NCBI RefSeq assembly: GCF_012163155.1 | Contig: NZ_JAAVUN010000017.1 | Span: 1-64,000, forward strand | Direction of reading: 5' to 3' | DNA from: Kocuria subflava | Lineage (GTDB): Bacteria; Actinomycetota; Actinomycetes; Actinomycetales; Micrococcaceae | DNA length: 64,000 nt | Shown here: in pieces, positions 20,093 to 55,300 of the stretch | Layout: every line of letters starts with the position of its first letter | Position numbering within the stretch: position 1 is the first letter of the stretch | Translations under genes and position numbers: made by a program | Notes under the pieces: model-generated | The model's database searches: none | What the model was told of the DNA's origin: nothing | The model's input: only the letters and a program-made list of their open reading frames with translations

Positions 20093-20396
20093 GGCGGCTC
20101 CCTCGGAACGGCGGGAGAACCCGCTGCGGTCAAGACAGCACTGAGGCTAGGGACGCTGTGTTTCGCCGTTTGTCCGAGTGTGTTTCCAGTCCTCACTCAG
20201 CGAGTTACAGCTGAGTGTCCGGCGTTAACCACAGATTTCCGCTCCACCTGATACCCGCCTGACGCCCTGGCCGACGTCCACCCACCGTGAGATCACCACC
20301 TGCTGCTGAGATGACACCCAACTGGCGGTGATTTCACCGGTAAGAGGTGATCTCACGGTGCGGTCGCAGCGGGTGGAGCCGCGACCGCGCACGCGT
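20093..20396. other. 304-bp intergenic region upstream of urtA
   Basis: The region holds the urtA leader, and copy B of the palindromic repeat (20287-20356) lies next to the end of the decarboxylase pseudogene. A GTTAC followed by GTGTC at 20204-20219 vaguely resembles a GlnR half-site pair but is not convincing. No gene is seen. Confidence 0.5.
20287..20356. repeat. 70-bp palindromic repeat, copy B
   Basis: Same length as copy A. The outer arms GTGAGATCACC and GGTGATCTCAC are conserved and the internal CTGCTGAGATGACACCCAAC block is present, but the right inner arm has diverged, so the hairpin is imperfect. It lies 40 bp beyond the stop of the decarboxylase pseudogene. Confidence 0.85.
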
Positions 20397-50266: not shown

Positions 50267-50336
50267 GTGAGATCACCGGTTGCTGCTGAGATGACCCCCA
50301 ACTGGGTGTCATCTCAGCAGCAAGTGGTGATCTCAG
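50267..50336. repeat. 70-bp palindromic repeat, copy C
   Basis: Near-perfect palindrome with arms of about 29 bp. The left arm opens GTGAGATCACCGG and the centre reads GATGACCCCCAACTGG. The two arms differ at three positions. It lies between the aldolase gene start and the end of the glycoside-hydrolase gene. Confidence 0.88.
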
Positions 50337-50350
50337 CGGTGGAGACGACG

Positions 50351-51424
50351 TCAGCCCCGGCGCAGGACCAACCCGTGGTGGGCATGCAGCACGTGTTTTC
50401 GTGCCACAGGCTCACCGGAGGCGTCCACCATGCCGCGGGGAACCTTGATCTTGCGGCGCATCCGCCGATCCTTGGCCAGGTTGGCGGCGGCAAAACCGTG
50501 TTTGAACTCCCGCGTCCAGGTGTCCCCCACCTGTTGCGGCGGCCCCAACGGGGAGCCCAGCTGGAAGTCCAGCTCCGGCACGTACTGCAGCTGGGAGTAG
50601 TCATCATGGCCCGTTGCCGAATAGGCCCCGGAACCATCACCGAAGATCCAGAAGGCGGCCAGTCCGTACAGAAAATTGGGGTGGTCATCCGAACCGTGGG
50701 TGGGCACCCGCAGGATGGAAATGCCCGGCCCGGCGGCCTGCCCGAGTTGCTGATGTGCCGTGTAGGGCTCGAACAGCTCATCAGGATTCCAGCCCAGCCA
50801 CACCTCCTCGAACCCGCCACCCCACTGCGCGTGAGTGTCCCACCGGCCGGGTTCGCGCCGCGATTCCGCAATGTTGGGGACCAGGATCTTGCCCCGCTCC
50901 CGTAACGCAGCCCCCGCGGCAGCCACCAACTCACCCAGCGCCGCCCGCAATTCAGACATGGAATCCAACCCGGTCAGAGGAAGGTTCAGCCCGTAATAGT
51001 CGTCAAAGACGTCGTTGTCCGCCATGACCCCGTCAAACGGCGAATCAGCCAGTTCGGCAGACACGTTGGCCACCCACCGTTGCCGGTAGGCCGGGTCCCA
51101 GACCCGCATCTGCCAGTGCCGCGGGTAACGCTCCCACTCAATGCGGCTGCCGTCCAGGCGAGTGGCGAACCAGTCCCCACCCTCCCGTTCGGCCTCCGTA
51201 GAACTGACTCCGGAGGTGAACACCGGACCAGGTTCGTAATCCCTGGTGGAGGACAGGCACTTGTAACAGAGCACCGTCATGTCCGGGCGTCGGCGTTTGA
51301 GCTCGGCGGCGGCCTCCACTTCCCAGGGCTGCAGAATCGCAGCCCGGTAGTGCTCCACCGCAAAGTCGATCTCATGCGCCTGAATCGGGTCTTTGTACCG
51401 GATCCACGCCCCCACCCCACTCAT
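50351..51424 (-). CDS. putative glycoside hydrolase of the Pel-like locus
   Basis: A 357-residue protein with no signal peptide. It looks like a TIM-barrel hydrolase of the GHL (putative glycosyl hydrolase) type, with acidic residues at strand ends such as FDGVMADNDVFDDYYG (near residue 130) and NIAESRREPG (near 181), and an aromatic-rich face (WDTHAQWGGGFEEVWLGWNPDE). The exact CAZy family is not certain. It starts 10 nt behind the PelF-like gene with GAGGAG before the ATG, so it is co-transcribed. It may trim or edit the polymer. PelA, which does this in known pel operons, is secreted or periplasmic, so a cytosolic hydrolase here is unusual. Confidence 0.7.
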   Translation of the reverse strand: MSGVGAWIRYKDPIQAHEIDFAVEHYRAAILQPWEVEAAAELKRRRPDMTVLCYKCLSSTRDYEPGPVFTSGVSSTEAEREGGDWFATRLDGSRIEWERYPRHWQMRVWDPAYRQRWVANVSAELADSPFDGVMADNDVFDDYYGLNLPLTGLDSMSELRAALGELVAAAGAALRERGKILVPNIAESRREPGRWDTHAQWGGGFEEVWLGWNPDELFEPYTAHQQLGQAAGPGISILRVPTHGSDDHPNFLYGLAAFWIFGDGSGAYSATGHDDYSQLQYVPELDFQLGSPLGPPQQVGDTWTREFKHGFAAANLAKDRRMRRKIKVPRGMVDASGEPVARKHVLHAHHGLVLRRG

Positions 51425-51434
51425 GAATCACTCC

Positions 51435-53327
51435 TCACGCACGGTGCCGGGGCGACCCCGGGCGTGCGTGCTCAGCATCCAGCTCCAGCCACTGGTCTCC
51501 TTCATGGATGGGCTCGACCTCAGGCATGGAGGCGGCAGCCTTGCGTGCCTGCTCCACACCGGTGGCGGTCGTGGACTCCACCTGATCCGGGGAGACCACC
51601 ATGAGGGACTCCGTGATCGGATCCATGCGGCGGTGGGCCACCTCGGAGGCGCCCTCGTAGCGCACGTTGCGCTCACCGGCGGTGTCACCGAGCATGCGGT
51701 AGAGCTGGTTGTAGTTGGCCATGACCTCGTGCAGCTGGAAGAAGTTCTGCACGCGCTCGCGGGAGTTGACCGAATAGGTCTTGTAGAGCTCCGGGTTGGA
51801 AACCACGCGGTGGATGCCTTCAGCCATCATCTGGATGTCACCGGCCACCACCAGTTCACCGCAGGCCTCATACACGCGGCCATCACCGGTGGTGAGGTCA
51901 TCGTGGATCAGCTGCTTCATGCCGCCAACGTCCGTGCCCACGGTGGGGATGCCCGCGGCCATGGCCTCCAGGACCACGATCGGCTGCCCCTCGTTGTAGG
52001 ACGGCAGCACCAACAGGTCGTACTCGTGCAGGTGTTCGCGGACGTTCACGGTGCCGTGAATGGTGACCATGTCCTCCAGCTGCAACGCAGCGATCTTCTC
52101 CACGCAGGCCTGGTGGTACCCGGGATCGTGTTCGGTGGGGCCCAGCACGTTCAGGTGCACGTTGGGGTAGCCCATCTCCCGCAGCATGGCCATGGATTCC
52201 AGAAGATCCAGCAGTCCCTTGATGGGCACCAGACGCGCAATGTAAACCAGGCTCCAGCGGTGCTCCTTGGGGTTGGCAAAGATCGACTCCATGGCCTCCG
52301 CCCGGGCACGGTAGGGACGGTCGAACTCCTCGATCACCATGCCGTTGGGAACCACCACGGACTTGTCCACGTCCGTGCCCAGGGAGGCGGCCTCCGCAAT
52401 GGCGGACGGGTACAAGTAGGTGATGACCTGCGCGGACGGGTAGCAGAAGTGGCCCATTTCCGTCCACCATGCCATCCAGGCCCGCTCCTCCGCGGTGACG
52501 TCGAACTCCCTGTAGTCGTGGGAGGTCAGCGGCAAGGCCATGTTGCGCCCCAGCAGGGTGTTCACGGTGTCACGCACGTAGAGGTTGTGCTCGGTCAGCA
52601 GGAAGGAGGTGTCGTGCTCACGGGCGGCCGCAGCAGACATCAGGGATGCGTACCCGGTGGTGTGCGCGTGGTAGACCTTGGCCCGCGGCATGGTCTCCGC
52701 CAGCACGGCGTGCCCCAGGGAGAAGAAGTTGCGCAGCGTCCAGAAAGCCTCGGACAGGGACAGCCCCAGCTCCGGCAGGTGCCGGCCCACGCCCATCATG
52801 AATTCACGCGATCCCAGCAGGGCCCACAGCGGGTACCGGCGGGTGGATTCCAGGACACCCTCGTCCAGCAACTCCCACAGGGCATCCACTTCACGCTTGG
52901 ACGGATCCTGGTTGGCCAGGACCTTCAGCGCATTGAAGAGTCGGTCGGTCAGCTCACGACGCTCCCGCGAGGTCATGTTCAGGTCCGCCACACGGGCTGA
53001 GCTGAAGTCGTGGCGATGCTCCTCCATGGACAGGTAGACCATGCGCACCCACTTGACGTTGCCCGGCATGCCGTAGAGATCCTCGTGCGGCGCCTTGGAA
53101 TCCCACGCGATGTGAATGATGCCGAACTCCACGTCCGGGTTCTCCACCACGATGTCATGCACCACCGCAGACACCCCACCCTTGAGGTAGGGGTAGGTGG
53201 ACTCCATCACGATGGCGACGTCCACCTCCGGGTAGTCACCGTTGTAGGCGATCTGCGCAGCGTTGAGTTCGGTGCTGGTCTGGCTGGTCTTCTTGAACTG
53301 CTGGGTGAACTTGTCCAGGAACTTCAT
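51435..53327 (-). CDS. pelF: PelF-like GT4 glycosyltransferase
   Basis: A 630-residue glycosyltransferase resembling PelF, the cytosolic polymerase of Pel exopolysaccharide. The N-terminal DUF3492 domain contains VDVAIVMESTYPYLKGGVSAVVHDIV (about residues 35-60) and FGIIHIAW. The GT4 catalytic domain contains VVVPNGMVIEEFDRP, LVPIKGLLDLLESM, and the nucleotide-sugar E-x7-E in PSYNEGQPIVVLEAMAAGIP. The last 65 or so residues are a variable tail. ATG 53327 has no clear ribosome site; the upstream frame lacks homology. It sits between the PelG-like gene and the hydrolase. Confidence 0.85.
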   Translation of the reverse strand: MKFLDKFTQQFKKTSQTSTELNAAQIAYNGDYPEVDVAIVMESTYPYLKGGVSAVVHDIVVENPDVEFGIIHIAWDSKAPHEDLYGMPGNVKWVRMVYLSMEEHRHDFSSARVADLNMTSRERRELTDRLFNALKVLANQDPSKREVDALWELLDEGVLESTRRYPLWALLGSREFMMGVGRHLPELGLSLSEAFWTLRNFFSLGHAVLAETMPRAKVYHAHTTGYASLMSAAAAREHDTSFLLTEHNLYVRDTVNTLLGRNMALPLTSHDYREFDVTAEERAWMAWWTEMGHFCYPSAQVITYLYPSAIAEAASLGTDVDKSVVVPNGMVIEEFDRPYRARAEAMESIFANPKEHRWSLVYIARLVPIKGLLDLLESMAMLREMGYPNVHLNVLGPTEHDPGYHQACVEKIAALQLEDMVTIHGTVNVREHLHEYDLLVLPSYNEGQPIVVLEAMAAGIPTVGTDVGGMKQLIHDDLTTGDGRVYEACGELVVAGDIQMMAEGIHRVVSNPELYKTYSVNSRERVQNFFQLHEVMANYNQLYRMLGDTAGERNVRYEGASEVAHRRMDPITESLMVVSPDQVESTTATGVEQARKAAASMPEVEPIHEGDQWLELDAEHARPGSPRHRA

Positions 53328-53418
53328 GATGCAATCCGTTTCAGAGTCAAAACTTCTTGGGGGTTCGCCAACCTCAGCCCTGCACAGGGGAGGTGAGGCG
53401 GGAAGGTGAGCGGGGCGT

Positions 53419-53454
53419 CGTCGTCGTGGGATTGCATGAACACCCACGACGACG
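53419..53454 (-). terminator. hairpin between pelG-like and pelF-like genes
   Basis: Perfect 12-bp arms (53419-53430 and 53443-53454) with a 12-nt loop, 9 nt beyond the pelG-like stop codon. It may partly end transcription or set different levels for the two genes. Confidence 0.6.
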
Positions 53455-53462
53455 AACGGGGC

Positions 53463-54905
53463 TCACCACGTGACGGCGTGACGCCAGAAGAGCGTGTACT
53501 CCGGCTGGGACCAGGCGCGCTTGTAGAGCCACCAGGCCACGGCCACCAGGGCCAGGTCACCGGTGACGATGATCAAGTAGGCGCCCACGCTCGGCACCAG
53601 GGCGAATGCTGCGATCATCACGATCAGGTGCGCGGCGGCCAGCCACTGGGAGAGGTGACGTTCGCCGATGTAGTCCAGCTCGTAGCTGAGCATGGTGAGC
53701 ATCATGAAGGCCCAGGAGGCCAGCGCGATCCCCACGGCCAGACCGGCCTGTTCCGGGACCAGAACCTCAAGGACCAACGAGCAGGCCAGGGTGAGCAACA
53801 TGCCCAGGGCGCCGGTTCGCAGCACGGAGCGGTCAATCACACGGGAGAGTTCGGCGGAGGTGTTGACCAGGTCCTTGATGGGCTCACCCTGGATGGCGGT
53901 GTGCAAGCCACGGATGTTGTTGTCCACCGCCGGAGCCAGGTTCACAAAGTAGAAGTTGTAAGCCAGCACGGCCGGCAGCATGGCCATGAAGACCACAATC
54001 ACCTGGAACTGACCGTCCGTGACCATGAACAGGATGAACTTGTCCCCCCACAGAACGGAACCCAGCAGCAGGCCGCGCAGCAGATCCTTGGCCACATCAC
54101 GGTGCGGGAGGCGGATCAGTGCGGTGACGTGACGCAGGTGGCCCCGGATGAAGAACAGCTGGGTCAGCGTGGCAGCAACGGGTGGCAGCCAGACCCAGGT
54201 GGGAGCCACGGCCAGCGCTGCGGCGTAGGCGATCCAGGCAACGGCCCAGTGGCCCCGGCGCTCACCGATGTTGGCGATCACCAAGGACTGGACAAACACC
54301 AGGTGCAGCACGCACAGCAGGGCGTAGAGCCCCATGGCCTGCGCGGACCAACCGCTGACCAGCCACAACGGCAGGGCAAACACGGCCACCAAGGGTAGGG
54401 CCTGGACCAGCATGGGCACCCAGCCCTGAACAAAGCGGGGGACGATCTGGGACATGTCCTTGTCGCCCATGAGCTGCGCCAGACCGCGATAAGCCGGCAT
54501 GCAAGCAGCCTGAGCCAACCACGGGGTGGTGATGGAGCTGGCCAGCACAATGTAGGTCAGGGTCACTCCCCCGACTTCCTGGTTGTTGATGGCCGGGGTG
54601 ACCAGGGGGAACACCAGGTTCAACAGAACCAGCGGGGAGAGGTAGAGGGCCAAGGCAATGCCCTGCCCCAAGGTGCCGCGGGTGTCAGTGCTACCCGTGA
54701 CGGCGGCGTTGAGCCGCTTGTTCGGCATGAGCAACACGGTGATCACACCGATCACCACGCCGGCCACGATCAACAGACCGCTTTCAGTGGCGGGCACAAC
54801 CCTCACCAGCGCTGGCACAGCCAGTGTTGCCACCAGCGCGGCGGCAATCACGAACGCTCGACGGCGACTGTAGGTGTCTTGCAAGACGGCAGCAAAAGAG
54901 CCCAT
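53463..54905 (-). CDS. pelG: PelG-like polysaccharide exporter
   Basis: A 480-residue integral membrane protein with about 12-14 hydrophobic segments and the features of PelG: a WGDKFILFMVTDGQ block near residue 290, a YNFYFVNLAPAVDNNIRG loop, a cytosolic stretch with RLPHRDVAKDLLRGLLLG, and paired IVLASSITTPWLAQ and PAYRGLAQLMGDKDMS segments. PelG moves Pel polymer across the membrane in partnership with PelF. ATG 54905 follows GGGGAG. It is first in the small operon. No PelD, PelE or signal-bearing PelA homologue is visible nearby. Confidence 0.75.
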   Translation of the reverse strand: MGSFAAVLQDTYSRRRAFVIAAALVATLAVPALVRVVPATESGLLIVAGVVIGVITVLLMPNKRLNAAVTGSTDTRGTLGQGIALALYLSPLVLLNLVFPLVTPAINNQEVGGVTLTYIVLASSITTPWLAQAACMPAYRGLAQLMGDKDMSQIVPRFVQGWVPMLVQALPLVAVFALPLWLVSGWSAQAMGLYALLCVLHLVFVQSLVIANIGERRGHWAVAWIAYAAALAVAPTWVWLPPVAATLTQLFFIRGHLRHVTALIRLPHRDVAKDLLRGLLLGSVLWGDKFILFMVTDGQFQVIVVFMAMLPAVLAYNFYFVNLAPAVDNNIRGLHTAIQGEPIKDLVNTSAELSRVIDRSVLRTGALGMLLTLACSLVLEVLVPEQAGLAVGIALASWAFMMLTMLSYELDYIGERHLSQWLAAAHLIVMIAAFALVPSVGAYLIIVTGDLALVAVAWWLYKRAWSQPEYTLFWRHAVTW

Positions 54906-55230: not shown

Positions 55231-55300
55231 CCGAGATCACCGTTTGCTGCTGAGATGACACACAACTGCAGGCGCTCTCAGCAGTAACCGGTGATCTCAG
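55231..55300. repeat. 70-bp palindromic repeat, copy D
   Basis: Opens CGAGATCACCG (one end base changed relative to copy A), with the TGCTGCTGAGATGACAC core and a right arm ending GGTGATCTCAG. The inner right arm has a few mismatches. Its last bases overlap the stop codon of the RNA methyltransferase gene (55297-55299). Confidence 0.85.

Follow-up and report, generated by a model that had tools for sequence, protein, structure and literature searches.

Can a Pel-type exopolysaccharide be made and exported without the proteins that usually help and control the process? The question is raised by three adjacent genes of Kocuria subflava, which lie in a stretch of 64,000 nucleotides (the window) that starts at position 1 of a contig of 68.7 kb. 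They run along the minus strand from 54905 to 50351 in the order PelG-like exporter, PelF polymerase, GHL15 glycoside hydrolase, and we refer to the set as the cassette. The characterised Gram-positive pel operon, that of Bacillus cereus ATCC 10987, has the arrangement pelD-E-A(DA)-F-G (PMC7112168, PMC13254593; published work is cited by PMC number throughout). The original prediction for this DNA described a reduced Pel-type locus in an actinobacterium, with a PelF-like polymerase, a PelG-like exporter and a cytosolic putative hydrolase, and with linked PelD, PelE and PelA lacking. All three open reading frames are genuine and lie at the positions given below. They form a stable three-gene system of many actinobacteria, which probably produces and exports a sugar polymer of the biofilm type and does so in the absence of the customary helper and control proteins.

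The PelF polymerase and the PelG-like exporter

PelF (630 amino acids; 53327-51435, minus strand) is a GT4 glycosyltransferase with DUF3492 and Glycos_transf_1 domains. It scored 239 bits against the NCBIfam PelF equivalog NF038011 (cut-off 100) and 139 bits against DUF3492 in Pfam. Four residues, R365, K370, E446 and E454, which we take to be catalytic in GT4 enzymes, do not vary among 10 aligned sequences, four of them canonical PelF proteins. Judged by these matches, the window protein is the PelF-type GT4 synthase by which a Pel system is recognised, and its original naming can stand.

The PelG-like protein (480 amino acids; 54905-53463, minus strand) comprises two N-terminal helices and a MOP-type core. 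It has no match in Pfam or NCBIfam up to E = 1, and PF16933 (PelG) is matched by none of 54 aligned exporter relatives, the window protein included, and by nothing else in its own genome. When profiles were compared using hhalign, the 54 exporter members aligned with nine canonical PelG proteins at 91.4% (E = 9e-7) over 200 columns in the C-terminal half. Comparisons with Wzx and MurJ gave 0.8% and 1.1%, and an MFS family and two reversed controls reached at most 1.1%. The positive control, Wzx against MurJ, gave 97.5%.

The AlphaFold2 model of the exporter (pLDDT 92.2) has extra N-terminal helices at residues 11-36 and 39-59, followed by the MOP-type core at about residues 63-475. Its best match among solved folds is WzxE (9g9p; Z 18.7, root mean square deviation 4.1 over 362 residues). 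As modelled, the protein folds as a MOP transporter. PelG itself has been described as a MOP superfamily protein (PMC13254593), and because the fold is common to both, structure alone cannot tell whether the exporter is PelG or Wzx. No PelG structure was among the PDB matches listed for the exporter, and we did not use that absence as evidence.

The WzxE match does raise the prospect of a Wzx-like pathway, in which PelF would build a lipid-linked glycan and the MOP protein would flip it, with no polymer synthase involved; WzxE is a lipid III flippase. We regard such a pathway as unlikely. The profile comparison favours PelG (91.4%) over Wzx and MurJ, the MOP fold belongs to PelG as well, and neither an initiating sugar-phosphate transferase nor a Wzy-type polymerase was recognised by eye among 25 listed neighbour clusters, which were not annotated singly. 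The identification of the exporter as a Wzx-like flippase is disfavoured on the same profile figures. Its fold had been named beforehand as a check on the original prediction of a PelG-like exporter, and the result, a MOP transporter of PelG's own superfamily with a profile unlike Wzx or MurJ, agrees with that prediction.

The GHL15 hydrolase

The third gene (51424-50351, minus strand) encodes a protein of 357 amino acids that matches PF14885 (GHL15) at 183.7 bits (gathering cut-off 27). GHL15 was the only family found in a Pfam scan at E <= 1; PF03537 (GH114) and PF12138 (GH135) were unmatched. The sequence tests covered GH114 and GH135, and GH166 and GH191 were compared by structure only. 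The structural model has a pLDDT of 95.8, and its first barrel strand is at residues 5-9. The top 14 structural matches are of fucanase type and extend over the whole length (Z 23.6-26.6; 13-21% identity). Most are labelled GH168 or endo-1,3-fucanase, the ones not so labelled being 9f9v and PbFucA (8rg3, 8rg5). Next come a GH191 alpha-galactosaminidase (Z 21.4), GH114 Ega3 (Z 18.6) and PelA GH166 (Z 18.3), at 10-13% identity. GH114, GH135, GH166 and GH191 are endo-galactosaminidase families with an Asp/Glu pair (PMC12054363).

Residues D136, D138, E187 and E207 are invariant in all 44 operon-linked copies that were aligned. In profile alignments, D136 pairs with a strand-end Asp in several of the matched chains, and the one partner seen for E207 is a Glu of 8rg5, weakly aligned. 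D136 and E207 may be the counterparts of D206/E264, the catalytic pair of the GH168 enzyme FunA (PMC10778895).

A signal peptide is not visible. The barrel motif was located in 61 of 65 GHL15 copies and is preceded by at most 28 residues, which argues against secretion. We inspected 14 N-termini by eye (the longest ones or those in which the motif was unmatched) and saw no signal-like segment in any of them. GHL15 is predicted to stay in the cytoplasm; the original description of the hydrolase as cytosolic is borne out in so far as no signal peptide is visible.

A second, solitary GHL15 gene is present elsewhere in the same genome (G000:C35:5953-7074, L120; 373 amino acids). At the aligned columns this paralogue has V in place of D136 and P in place of E207, so that both putative catalytic residues are lost. 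We considered whether it marks another cassette and rejected the idea, since no PelF- or PelG-like genes are near it and D136 and E207 are gone.

Conservation of the three-gene cassette

A PelF-alignment scan of a contig collection (84,980 species) yielded 82 confirmed relatives, from which 80 loci were kept. All but one of these (L115, which was dropped) encode a cassette-type PelF, leaving 79. Because the seed patterns favour this PelF subclade, the count is uninformative on other PelF lineages. In 78 of the 79 loci PelF has a PelG-like gene upstream of it, on its own strand, and in 77 GHL15 lies within 4 kb of PelF; the loci that miss one (L082 for the PelG-like gene, L081 and L113 for GHL15) all stop at a contig edge. 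In 60 loci the GHL15 gene follows PelF on its strand at a distance of no more than 600 bases. Of the 59 pelF-ghl15 pairs that are adjacent, 44 have a 4-base start/stop overlap. The gene set is conserved far beyond what chance would give.

By record title, and counted by hand, the cassette occurs in 19 actinobacterial genera, including Kocuria, Arthrobacter, Pseudarthrobacter, Rothia, Actinomyces, Corynebacterium, Kineococcus and Actinoplanes. In a family draw of 120 genomes, some of which are shared with the PelF scan, the exporter is present in 10, the K. subflava genome included. Of the other nine, eight have the complete set in unchanged order, and G002 retains broken remnants. A phylum-wide draw of 346 genomes was too sparse for an estimate of distribution: the PelG-like profile matched one genome (K. 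subflava itself), PF16933 four, the PelF alignment three (E <= 1e-60) and GHL15 two. The cassette occupies the same site in the relatives L036 and L037 and has other surroundings in two K. marina records and in Kocuria loci L040 and L105. Distances correlate at r 0.95-0.96 across 51 loci, which mostly reflects shared ancestry and was not used as proof of interaction.

Ratios of nonsynonymous to synonymous substitution (dN/dS) against the closest relative, L036, are 0.041 for pelG, 0.068 for pelF and 0.068 for ghl15; three neighbouring genes gave 0.037-0.081. Against the more distant L037 the values are 0.073 for pelG and 0.102 for pelF, and that for ghl15 is undefined because synonymous sites are saturated. 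These figures bear on the idea that the cassette is a decayed, non-working relic of a canonical pel operon that has lost pelD, pelE and pelA. Linked PelD, PelE and PelA were indeed not found, and in G002 there are only broken remnants. Set against this are the dN/dS values of 0.04-0.07 for all three genes, the conserved active-site residues and the recurrence of the cassette's genes in 77-78 of the 79 loci. Selection and conservation already contradict the relic idea, which we consider very improbable. What survives of the phrase "reduced locus in an actinobacterium" is the missing genes; the cassette is not a reduction in a single organism, and no result indicates the gene loss that "reduced" implies.

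The frequent overlap of pelF and ghl15 could also be read another way, with GHL15 as a non-hydrolysing structural or regulatory subunit of the synthase in place of PelD/PelE. Tight coupling to pelF fits a subunit, and the solitary paralogue, which has lost its putative catalytic residues, indicates that non-catalytic roles may exist in the GHL15 family. The four acidic residues are nevertheless invariant in the 44 operon-linked copies, and we think such a non-hydrolysing role improbable.

A few loci stand out. In Corynebacterium meridianum (L103:5210-9986) the pelG-pelF pair has directly upstream of it another PelF-like gene, of divergent sequence, with GHL15 after it. A record titled Vibrio cholerae strain 35D (L114) has a cassette that groups with Arthrobacter ones, and the record is probably contaminated. 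Loci L122 and L123 (Sulfitobacter and Paracoccus) are PelF/PelG pairs on roseobacter-type plasmids.

PelD, PelE, PelA and c-di-GMP

As phmmer queries (E <= 1e-4) we took the proteins resembling PelD, PelE and PelA that are encoded by L156 and L157, two canonical pel loci from the phylum. The targets were the 80 loci (with flanks of up to 10 kb, many clipped by contig ends), the window and the rest of its contig. No PelD-like match was found in any of these targets, save for the epimerase part of one PelD query, which matches sequences in eight loci, the best being a GalE-like neighbour. PelE-like matches were likewise absent near the 80 loci, in the window and in the contig end (the PelE search did not extend to other parts of the genome), as were PelA-type deacetylases in the same targets. 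The window is therefore without linked pelD, pelE or pelA, as had been proposed, and the remaining end of the contig, where they might have lain close by, does not hold them either.

The K. subflava genome has no GGDEF domain at E <= 1e-5, in a search whose control was positive in 8 of 14 genomes. PF16963 (PelD) gave nothing over the cut-off in this genome and PF25115 (Agd3-type deacetylase) was not found in it; both profiles were also silent in all 14 control genomes, and these two negatives carry little weight.

Accessory genes and the nature of the polymer

PelF was called in 77 loci. Of these, 16 have a GalE-like epimerase nearby, 6 a galU-like gene and 17 a DUF4832-type protein (two clusters, of 8 and 9). 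These accessory clusters were built by BLAST, and a Pfam check covered five DUF4832 proteins and one epimerase. The loci with a nearby galU are six chromosomal ones from Arthrobacter and Pseudarthrobacter. Spherulin4 (PF12138), which we assume to be of the GH135 type, occurs in two loci (L091 and L107). Both galE and DUF4832 have been reported beside Gram-positive pel operons (PMC7112168).

One copy of the cassette is on pTC2, a conjugative plasmid of Paenarthrobacter aurescens TC1 (L121), where galU, pelG, pelF, ghl15, galE and a DUF4832-type gene follow one another. The annotated order is galU, membrane protein, glycosyltransferase, hypothetical, galE, hypothetical; by profile, the three middle genes score 595 bits (PelG-like), 1045 bits (PelF) and 599 bits (GHL15). 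The galU, galE and last genes are up to 92% identical to cassette neighbours on Arthrobacter and Pseudarthrobacter chromosomes. A response regulator is also found near the cassette on pTC2.

On the basis of PelF, GalE and Spherulin4, we infer that the polymer resembles Pel, itself an alpha-1,4 GalNAc/GalN polymer, in being an alpha-glycan of the galactosamine/galactose type. It could instead be a different alpha-glycan, for example one containing galactose or fucose, made by Pel-related machinery with a chemistry other than that of a Pel-like galactosamine polymer. The fucanase-type structures match GHL15 at Z 23.6-26.6, against 18-21 for the galactosaminidases. The presence of galU and galE beside the plasmid copy, and of their close relatives beside the Arthrobacter and Pseudarthrobacter chromosomal copies, indicates a supply of UDP-glucose and UDP-galactose. 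Moreover, both canonical loci of the phylum carry a deacetylase gene, and no PelA-type deacetylase was found near the 80 loci. We still judge a different glycan somewhat unlikely: two loci contain Spherulin4 genes, proven pel operons, too, have epimerases of the GalE type beside them (PMC7112168), and the substrate cannot be read off from a fold neighbour.

Proposed mechanism

We favour, with reasonable but far from full confidence, a compact PelFG synthase-exporter that works without gating by cyclic di-GMP (c-di-GMP) and has an intracellular hydrolase coupled to PelF and acting on the same polymer. PelF would polymerise a nucleotide sugar at the cytoplasmic face of the membrane, and the PelG-like MOP protein would pass the chain outward. 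A linked PelD/PelE scaffold would be absent, as would c-di-GMP gating. GHL15, which in most loci appears to be translationally coupled to PelF, would stay inside the cell and cut the polymer in the cytoplasm, thereby editing or clearing chains. Its task might be to remove or free chains that have stalled, to fix their length or to supply primers, and the sequence gives no ranking among these. PelA acts outside the cytoplasm; the odd feature of the cassette is a hydrolase with conserved active-site residues that is coupled to the synthase, probably inside the cell.

Several observations weigh against this compact synthase-exporter. The homology to PelG, as predicted from profiles, lies in 200 C-terminal columns, and smaller profiles (nine exporters against three canonical PelG proteins) gave only 0.9%, a result that we take to be underpowered because the 54- and 9-member profiles gave 91.4%. 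The closest solved relatives of GHL15 are fucanases, with galactosaminidases second, and its fucanase-like fold together with GalU/GalE fits a galactose-type or mixed polymer equally well. Neighbouring galE, DUF4832 and Spherulin4 genes occur in a minority of loci, and none is seen beside the window's own cassette. In 17 of 77 loci GHL15 is more distant downstream, is encoded on the other strand or precedes PelF, and in the window itself pelF and ghl15 are 10 bases apart, with no start/stop overlap. A PelD without a recognisable GGDEF domain may lie elsewhere in the genome. Finally, the substrate, product and localisation proposed here are predictions.

A bolder version of the compact synthase-exporter makes it a separate class of actinobacterial synthase, in which PelF and a distant PelG suffice without PelD, PelE or c-di-GMP, and an obligatory intracellular endo-hydrolase or transglycosylase acting on the growing chain replaces the secreted PelA. 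The tasks of GHL15 would then be release, length control or priming, and the class is so far found only in actinobacteria. We offer this version tentatively, as a possibility that we doubt more than we trust. If it is true, the cassette would provide a surface polysaccharide in genera of the mouth and skin, among them Actinomyces, Rothia and Corynebacterium. More generally, PelF, PelG and an intracellular hydrolase offer a small natural system in which to study the minimal requirements for polymerisation and export. The cassette also bears on why exopolysaccharide operons repeatedly contain hydrolases, and it leads us to predict that actinobacteria of soil, skin and mouth make a polymer not yet described.

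Surroundings of the cassette in Kocuria

Upstream of the cassette are genes that, from their sequences, we take to be a TrmH-like methyltransferase and pyrE, and downstream is presumably a class II fructose-bisphosphate aldolase. The spacer between pelG and pelF contains a perfect 12-bp hairpin (53419-53454, minus strand), a tentative feature based on reading and folding the sequence; on folding, it was not seen in nine other pelG-pelF spacers. The corresponding spacer of L036 also has a hairpin, of a different sequence.

Both sides of the cassette are flanked by a 68-bp palindromic repeat, at 50268-50335 and 55233-55300, which recurs in the window at 20282-20360 and 1386-1456. We considered whether the flanking copies are the ends of a mobile element. 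This was rejected because the palindrome has about 21 sites in the genome (counted by hand, with palindromic matches taken once), making it a dispersed, REP-like repeat.

Comparison with known systems

The exporter resembles WzxE and MurJ in its MOP fold and differs from them in profile similarity (0.8% for Wzx and 1.1% for MurJ). The window hydrolase is linked to the GH168 endo-fucanases and other GHL15 proteins by its own match to PF14885 and by a fold match over the whole length. The characterised GH168 enzymes, FunA and FWf5, differ from it in bearing signal sequences and degrade fucans from algae (PMC10778895). No mention of pel genes was seen in connection with the GH168 enzymes or the other GHL15 proteins. 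With PelA GH166, GH114 Ega3 and GH191, GHL15 shares a TIM barrel with an Asp/Glu pair (PMC12054363) at Z 18-21; it is set apart from them by an identity of 10-13% and by having no export signal.

In the phylum's two canonical loci PelF, PelG and a nearby hydrolase (Spherulin4 in L156, GH114 in L157) are present, as in the cassette. Unlike the cassette, they carry genes for PelD-like (GAF with GGDEF or epimerase) and PelE-like (TPR) proteins and a deacetylase, and their PelG proteins match PF16933.

The statement in the original prediction that known Gram-positive pel operons carry pelD, pelE and pelA is right for the characterised ones and too broad otherwise. Some published Gram-positive operons are ones whose only identified genes are pelF and pelG (PMC7112194, S3 Fig legend), so a bare pelF-pelG pair is not new. 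We found no report of the GHL15 partnership or of this exporter family in the open-licence PMC papers searched.

The cassette resembles the B. cereus pel operon in having a PelF-family synthase next to a PelG-related MOP exporter, in the recurrence of galE and DUF4832 accessory genes and in the nearby hydrolase with a galactosaminidase-type fold. It differs in having no linked PelD, PelE or PelA deacetylase, in its gene order (G-F rather than F-G), in an exporter that falls outside the Pfam PelG family, and in its hydrolase, which is a GHL15 protein with no visible signal peptide and a constant member of the set.

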